Virus record (IMG/VR): IMGVR_UViG_3300011432_000049
Coordinates: 1-21,782 of that record
DNA: 21,782 nt
Strand: one strand, 5' to 3'
DNA from: a virus
Below, piece by piece: positions 7,385 to 20,557 of the stretch (the stretch's first letter is position 1; each line of letters begins with the position of its first letter). The notes under the pieces were generated by a model. It worked only from the letters and a program-made list of their open reading frames with translations, was not told the DNA's origin and ran no database searches. Position numbers and translations under genes: made by a program.

Positions 7385-8218
7385 ATGACTCGGACGGCCT
7401 ATGACCGCATGGCGGGCAAGCTCGGCACGTCCGACCTCGAGGACTACGAGGCTTTCGTCACGCACACCACTACCGGCAGTGCCGGTATCCCCGGTGAGCC
7501 TGGCCCACGGGGACCGGCCGGACCGCAAGGTCTGGCCGGTCCCATGGGACCGCAGGGCGTACCGGGTGCCGCTGGCGCTCGCGGCATCCCCGGCGAGACC
7601 GGGCCACAAGGACCAGTCGGCGAGGTCGGCCCTCCGGGCATCTCCGGCACTCCTGGCATCCCTGGACTCGAAGGTCCCGAGGGCCTGCCTGGACCGCAGG
7701 GCATCCAGGGCATCCAGGGCTTGCAGGGCATCCCTGGCATCCCCGGCACTCCGGGTGCTGTGGGCGCCGGCATCGTCGCCGGCCTCATCGTCATGTGGTC
7801 CGGCTTGGTCGCCAACATCCCGTCCGGCTGGGTCCTTTGCAACGGCCAGAACGGTACCCCAGACCTCCGTGACCGCTTCATCAAGGGCGCATCGGGGAAC
7901 CCAGGTGCCACCGGAGGCTCCACCACCCACACGCACGCCGCGCATACCGGCGTCATCAATCACACGCATCCCGTCACCGACCCCGGCCATACGCATCCGT
8001 TCTTCCCGCGGACGGCCGCGACCGGTGCCGTGTCCTCGATCGTCACGGGGACGCTCGACACCTCCTCGACCATCGCTGGGCCGAACCAGCCGCACATCCA
8101 GTCGGCCACGACCGGCATCACCACGGCGAATCCGGCTGGCGGCGTCTCCTCGCTGACCCACGACTCGCCGAGCCATGAGCCGCCGTACTTCGCGCTGTGC
8201 TTCCTGATGAAGACGTAG
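7385..8218 (+). CDS. Collagen-like fibre protein with His-x-His tip
   Basis: The 277-residue protein has three parts. Residues 1-30 form a short N-terminal anchor. Residues 31-127 are an unbroken run of Gly-X-Y triplets (about 33), rich in Pro at X/Y and containing [13 protein letters not shown]-type sequence, which folds as a collagen triple helix in other phage and bacterial proteins. Residues 130-277 form a tip resembling tail-collar/fibre heads: [21 protein letters not shown], then three HxH motifs (H182/H184, H193/H195, H202/H204) and a C-terminal [15 protein letters not shown]. HxH motifs bind metal in trimeric T4 fibre tips. The product is probably a trimeric surface fibre. Its place in the head module, not with tail fibres, is unusual. 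It starts two bases after the previous stop. Confidence 0.9.
7475..7765 (+). repeat. Gly-X-Y coding tract (collagen repeat)
   Basis: About 33 consecutive codon triplets starting with GGN encode the Gly-X-Y run of the fibre. Within it, GGCATCCAG/GGCATCCCT-type 9-mers recur several times around 7695-7750, so the tract could expand or shrink by slippage or recombination. It is a coding repeat, not a CRISPR or tandem satellite. Confidence 0.85.
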
Positions 8219-19928: not shown

Positions 19929-20267
19929 TCATTCGTCGATGGGTCTATGAGGCCGTCGCGGTGGCCCTAGACGCTCGTCTACCGCCCGATCGACCTCCAT
20001 GGCTATCGCCATCCGTAGCTCGTCGTCCACGGGCACGGCTGCGTCCCCGTCGAGCGCGGCCACGACCTCCCACGGCCTGACCCCGAGCGCGCTCGCCACG
20101 GCGGCCAGCGCGTCCATGTCGGGATAGCCGTCGAAGTCCGGGTTGGTCCACTTCGTCAAGGTCTGCCGCTGCACGCCTGAGCGCTCCACCAGCGCCTTCT
20201 GCCAGCCACGACGCCCGCCTGTCCTACGGGCTAGGTAGGTGCGCATCCGTGTGCCTCGCGTCGTCAT
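19929..20267 (-). CDS. XRE-family helix-turn-helix repressor (probable immunity repressor)
   Basis: The 112-residue leftward product has an XRE-type helix-turn-helix: GWQKALVERSGVQRQTLTKW (residues 21-40) followed by MDALAAVASALGVRPWEVV (51-69), then an acidic helix (DDELRMAIAMEVDRAVDERL) and a basic tail. It lacks a peptidase domain of the LexA/cI type, so it is a small repressor. I place the start at ATG 20267: no Shine-Dalgarno sequence is present, but a TACCGT box ends eight bases before it, which fits a leaderless message as for lambda cI. ATG 20246 (105 residues) is the alternative. It faces the Cro-like gene across a divergent control region and probably maintains lysogeny by blocking rightward transcription. 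Confidence 0.82.
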   Translation of the reverse strand: MTTRGTRMRTYLARRTGGRRGWQKALVERSGVQRQTLTKWTNPDFDGYPDMDALAAVASALGVRPWEVVAALDGDAAVPVDDELRMAIAMEVDRAVDERLGPPRRPHRPIDE

Positions 20268-20274
20268 CGACACA

Positions 20275-20303
20275 ACGGTATTGACATGGGTGCGCGGACT
20301 GTG
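20275..20303 (-). promoter_or_regulatory. Leftward repressor promoter (weak, candidate)
   Basis: On the minus strand TACCGT (20280-20275) lies seven bases before the repressor ATG at 20267, the right distance for a -10 box of a leaderless message. The -35 position (CACAGT, 20303-20298) is poor, as for promoters that need an activator. It shares its spacer with the rightward promoter, so the two cannot be occupied freely at once. Confidence 0.4.
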
Positions 20304-20309
20304 TACCGT
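20281..20309 (+). promoter_or_regulatory. Rightward early promoter
   Basis: TTGACA (20281-20286, perfect consensus -35) is followed after exactly 17 bases by TACCGT (20304-20309), which has the TAnnnT -10 pattern common in high-GC actinobacteria. Transcription would start near 20316 and drive the Cro-like gene and the small genes behind it. Confidence 0.75.
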
Positions 20310-20368
20310 TCGCATAGTCAGAGCCATGGCTACGTTGTCTATGACCTGGCAGCATAGGCGGAGCACAC

Positions 20369-20557
20369 GTGACGCACCCACTTTCGGAAGCCCTCGCAAG
20401 GCGCGAGCGCAGCGCCTCCTGGCTGGCACGCAAGACGGGTAAGACCCCCTCCTACGTGTCCCGTGTCATGAGCGGCGAACGCAGACCCTCCGAGGACTTC
20501 CGCGAGCGCGCAGCAGCGACGCTCGGGGTGCCTGAGTCACGCCTGTTCCCGTCATGA
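20369..20557 (+). CDS. Cro-like XRE helix-turn-helix protein
   Basis: The 62-residue product is little more than a DNA-binding domain: SWLARKTGKTPSYVSRVMSG (residues 17-36) is a clear helix-turn-helix with the usual S-Y-V-S-R recognition helix, followed by a helix ending LGVPESRLF, as in short XRE proteins. It starts with GTG at 20369 behind a GGCGGAG site, about 53 bases after the expected start of transcription. As first gene behind the rightward promoter and opposite the repressor it probably plays the Cro role, or that of an excisionase/early regulator. The stop overlaps the ribosome site of the next gene. Confidence 0.82.
   Translation: MTHPLSEALARRERSASWLARKTGKTPSYVSRVMSGERRPSEDFRERAAATLGVPESRLFPS

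Follow-up and report, generated by a model that had tools for sequence, protein, structure and literature searches.

In phage lambda, CI bound at OR2 activates PRM, and OR2 lies at about -35 to -53 relative to the PRM start. Phage PY54 has a divergent CI/Cro pair, and RACE placed the 5' end of its cI mRNA at the AUG (PMC4488713). The PaaR2/YdaS system of a cryptic prophage of E. coli O157:H7 has a 97-bp divergent region, and the regulator transcript starts at the start codon and is translated leaderless (PMC8630535). In Actinobacteria and Deinococcus-Thermus, leaderless genes of the TANNNT type lack a Shine-Dalgarno site, and their -10 box lies immediately before the start codon (PMC3160421, PMC12340547). 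Zheng et al. 2011 took a TANNNT located about 12 bp before the start as the leaderless signal and reported it for 4 of 12 Chloroflexi genomes (PMC3160421).

We analyzed a pair of divergent genes in a window that is an entire IMG/VR record of 21.8 kb. The record is that of a siphovirus-like phage with terminase, portal, capsid, and tape measure genes, and the nearest matches to its terminase were from actinophages (46-49%). A collagen-like protein with Gly-X-Y repeats is encoded amid the structural genes (7385-8218). No integrase, tRNA, or Rfam RNA was found within the 21.8-kb record. The gene pair lies between structural phage genes and small genes of unknown function (Table 1). The original prediction of a divergent XRE/Cro switch agrees with what the two genes encode: both products are HTH regulators. 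The repressor matched HTH_26 (E = 1.2e-4, over the cut-off), and the Cro-like protein matched HTH_31 (E = 3.8e-9). An AlphaFold2 model of the repressor had a mean pLDDT of 80 and a first helix at residues 4-15, and fold comparison returned generic XRE folds and nothing more specific. With 112 aa and one HTH, the repressor had no C-terminal dimerization or self-cleavage domain among its Pfam and PHROGs matches.

Table 1. Coordinates of genes, promoter elements, and candidate operator sequences in the window.
Feature	Position	Strand	Comment
Repressor gene	19929..20267	-	112 aa, Cro/C1-type HTH; start ATG at 20267, probably leaderless
Alternative in-frame ATG, codon 8	20244..20246	-	After GAGG; secondary or unused
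Repressor start codon, putative transcription start too	20265..20267	-	7 bases past the -10 box in 5/5 loci; no Shine-Dalgarno site
7-bp inverted repeat AACGGTA/TACCGTT	20274..20310		Originally predicted operator; probably coincidental
Leftward -10 box TACCGT	20275..20280	-	Reads TAGCCT in L057, L060, and L061 and TACCAT in distant L069
Rightward -35 box TTGACA	20281..20286	+	Adjoins leftward -10; same in four loci, TTGACT in the fifth
Candidate operator unit TGTACCGTTCGCATAGTCA	20302..20320	+	Over rightward -10 and start; matrix rank 5 of 43,528
Rightward -10 box TACCGT	20304..20309	+	TACCGT with N17 in 4/4 close loci; TAGTGT with N17 in distant L069
Weak second candidate unit	20342..20360	+	GCATAG shared; 40 bp downstream; 11/15 identical
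Cro-like gene	20369..20557	+	62 aa, GTG start with Shine-Dalgarno site

Homologous pairs recur in three other loci. A search of species genomes with the Cro-like protein identified a contig of a Chloroflexi MAG with the same divergent pair (L057), and a two-row repressor profile identified two viral contigs (L060 and L061). A four-row repressor profile then detected a distant repressor homologue (L069; E = 4.9e-7) in the same class as the MAG. The five loci compared below are these four and the window; the full pair is limited to the four close loci, and a Cro-like gene was not detected at L069. The repressor is 46-53% identical to its homologues, with the MTxRG start kept, and the Cro-like protein is 42-71% identical to its relatives. 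The window and the stretches around L057, L060, and L061 have only the repressor and Cro genes in common, plus one short weak match. Because the stretches share so little else, the switch behaves as a module. No further close members were found among 400 genomes sampled from the phylum of the MAG or 177 genomes of its class. Searches of viral contigs, genome contigs, and phage records with single repressor sequences gave no match, and the exact string of promoter plus arms had no match in viral contigs.

Several other candidates were discarded. L002, found with the Cro-like protein, had an unrelated context, and in L058 and L059 the Cro domain was matched distantly, by the N-terminal part of large unrelated proteins. 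Weak HTH matches (L070-L072) were also set aside; L070 and L071 turned out to be other regulators. Two matches to the promoter pattern (L137 and L139) were not divergent switches, L137 being a pilin-like host ORF. The terminase-related records lacked the repressor, and their other HTH genes (L044-L048) belong to different systems. In one of these phage records, two divergent HTH genes of another kind encode proteins of 161 and 103 aa (L048:412-1341), possibly a second type of switch.

The shared intergenic region has two predicted divergent promoters, with boxes and spacings conserved in five loci. In each locus, TANNNT-N7-ATG reads leftward and TTGAC(A/T)-N17-TANNNT reads rightward. The rightward promoter had been described as a TTGACA, a 17-base spacer (20287-20303), and a TACCGT, and the leftward one as a TACCGT before the repressor ATG. 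All of these elements are present, and the leftward box (20280-20275) is separated by 7 bases from the A of the ATG at 20267. The pattern TTGACA-N16-18-TANNNT occurs only once on both strands of the 21.8 kb, at the rightward promoter. Among the four close loci, 6 of 6 positions are invariant in the -35 box and 6 of 6 in the rightward -10 box, as are 6 of 17 in the spacer and 1 of the next 18 bases. At the leftward -35 position these loci read CACAGT, CCCCCA, CCCCCA, and CCCCGT, so the leftward promoter appears to lack a -35 box. The -10 of each promoter directly adjoins the -35 position of the other. Because the promoters are superimposed in this way, the geometry indicates that they probably cannot be occupied at the same time. 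A TTGACA-N17-TACCGT string also lies upstream of the pilin-like ORF, which has a GGAGG Shine-Dalgarno site, in a genome of the class of the MAG (L137:1500-1760), and this suggests that TACCGT is an ordinary -10 box in that class.

The repressor message had been predicted to begin at its own ATG, with no ribosome site. This leaderless reading is well supported by sequence comparison, because TANNNT-N7-ATG is kept without a Shine-Dalgarno site and because the same signal is found genome-wide in the MAG with the closest homologue (G024). The distance from the first T of the box to the A of the ATG is 13 bases in all five loci. Pairing of the ATG region at 20267 with the anti-Shine-Dalgarno sequence gave +1.2 kcal/mol, whereas the median over 28 starts in the phage was -5.45. 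A Shine-Dalgarno site was absent at all five repressor starts (-0.1 to +1.3 kcal/mol), and the Cro starts of the switch loci have one (-5.6 to -9.7 kcal/mol; -5.8 in the window). We scanned 0.91 Mb of G024 for TANNNT before in-frame ATGs of long ORFs. There were 15 cases of TANNNT 6-8 nt before the ATG compared to 2.2 expected (P = 1.6e-8), with a peak at 7. This signature was measured in the MAG of the homologue, a Chloroflexi MAG (contigs L077-L136) with about 71.6% G+C in the first contigs sampled.

Another possibility is that the message has an ordinary leader, with transcription from near 20267 and translation from the in-frame ATG at 20246, a usable start that the original prediction did not mention. 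The GAGG before this codon is well spaced (-5.9 kcal/mol). However, the three close relatives have CTG, CTG, and CTA at this codon, whereas the ATG of MTxRG is invariant, and the GAGG sits in conserved Arg-Gly codons. A start at 20246 would also cut predicted helix 1, which begins at residue 4. It seems unlikely, then, that the repressor is made in this way.

Where the regulators might bind was approached through the close relatives. In L057, L060, and L061, the sequence from the rightward -10 onward can be read as three tandem 21-bp units of the form GGTRCCGYGAGCGTAG. A lag of 21 was the best in L057 and L061 and tied for best in L060, and it beat shuffled sequences in L061 only. We built a matrix solely from units 2 and 3, the downstream units, of the close relatives. 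In the window, the site at 20302-20320 ranked near the top, and 1.15% of shuffled intergenic sequences scored as high; this match to unit 1 is forced in part by the -10 box. Units 2 and 3 are poor matches in the window, and the second unit at 20342-20360 had a shuffle fraction of 0.047 and a matrix rank of about 510-545. We propose, as a candidate operator, a direct-repeat unit overlapping the rightward -10 in place of the inverted repeat. This unit lies at -35 to -53 relative to the repressor start.

The operator first suggested was that inverted repeat, where a single bound dimer or a looped pair would span both -10 boxes. The repeat is present as described and is perfect in the window. Its arms (20274-20280 and 20304-20310) are 100% complementary and coincide with the two -10 boxes, with 23 bases between them and 30 from start to start. 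The complementarity of 7/7 in the window falls to 4/7 in each of the four relatives, so the repeat is unlikely to be a conserved operator. The four matching positions in the relatives are promoter-box letters plus one position, and any pair of divergent TANNNT boxes will pair at three positions by default. Chance produces at least one 7-bp inverted repeat, with arms at most 40 bases apart, in 13% of 101-bp sequences from intergenic shuffles and in 22% of those from a Markov model, and the left arm ranked 17,999 of 43,528 sites with the unit matrix of the relatives. There is one other copy of the 7-mer in the window, at 7850. An operator consisting of this single inverted repeat is therefore not supported, and we consider it quite improbable.

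Other repeats were seen in these regions. In the window, the Cro leader contains a perfect palindrome of 10 bp, AGCCATGGCT (20322-20331), and an 8-bp inverted repeat (20287-20294/20373-20380) extends into the Cro gene. The rightward -10 of the distant locus is overlapped by a perfect inverted repeat of 16 bp, TGATAG-AACA-CTATCA (L069:180-275), which is a candidate operator of another form than the 21-bp units seen in the close homologues.

Taken together, the gene pair is probably a CI/Cro-type switch by which a temperate phage chooses between lysis and lysogeny, with superimposed promoters, a leaderless repressor, and the unit at 20302-20320 bound. With the two divergent promoters superimposed, one polymerase at a time would use the region. 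The rightward TTGACA-N17-TACCGT would give a message in which an untranslated leader precedes the Cro-like gene and supplies a Shine-Dalgarno site. From the leftward promoter, with its -10 box alone, a leaderless repressor message would begin at its own AUG. The repressor, the Cro-like protein, or both would bind the 20302-20320 unit, over the rightward -10 and start. The bound unit would block the lytic promoter, and it is placed where it could activate the repressor promoter as lambda CI does at OR2. The ends of the transcripts, the pairing of proteins with units, activation by the bound unit, and temperate growth of this phage are inferred.

The pair could instead be a toxin-antitoxin or other autoregulated HTH module and not an immunity switch. 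A profile of the Cro rows weakly matched the HigA antitoxin, and the window record has no integrase. However, the pair consists of two small HTH proteins, no toxin family scored above the cut-off among the neighbors tested, structural phage genes adjoin it on one side, and a tyrosine integrase is present in one homologous phage record (G025). The chance that the pair is such a module appears very slight. It is hardly credible that the repressor is translated in an extended frame, from a start on the far side of the promoters: the frame is open upstream in 4/4 loci and an LVNSL-like peptide recurs in the three close relatives, but this peptide coincides with the invariant promoter boxes, and the only upstream start codon seen at a shared position in the four loci was an NTG, two codons before the ATG, 1 base past the -10 box and without a Shine-Dalgarno site.

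The reading as a CI/Cro-type switch, which has comparative support, would bring a design known from lambda, PY54, and the E. coli O157:H7 prophage, the leaderless repressor, to phages with their nearest known relative in a Chloroflexi genome. It offers an operator unit that is testable and different from the one first proposed. Switches of uncultured phages might also be located by this arrangement, in which the TANNNT-N7-ATG of an HTH gene diverges from a TTGACA-N17-TANNNT. Much more tentatively, there might be an uncharacterized repressor family, in phages related to Chloroflexi prophages, that uses asymmetric operator units, directly repeated at exactly two helical turns (21 bp). Unit 1 would cover the lytic -10 at -35 to -53 of a leaderless repressor promoter that has no -35 box, and one bound unit would both repress and activate.

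The locus resembles lambda cI/cro in having divergent repressor and Cro genes, a short intergenic region, and a candidate operator over the promoter corresponding to PR. The leaderless cI mRNA of lambda and its weak PRM without a good -35 also resemble what is predicted for the repressor here. In contrast to lambda CI, the repressor has only 112 aa and one HTH, with no recognized C-terminal cleavage domain. The candidate operators look like direct units 21 bp apart, whereas those of lambda OR are palindromes; the promoters are fully superimposed, and the host group is probably different. PY54 differs in that its cro is leaderless as well (PMC4488713), whereas the Cro-like gene of the window has a leader and a Shine-Dalgarno site. 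PaaR2 belongs to a toxin-antitoxin operon (PMC8630535), and its likeness to the window is one of arrangement. The TANNNT leaderless genes described previously are mostly cellular, whereas the predicted one of the window is a phage regulator with its closest homologue in a Chloroflexi MAG.
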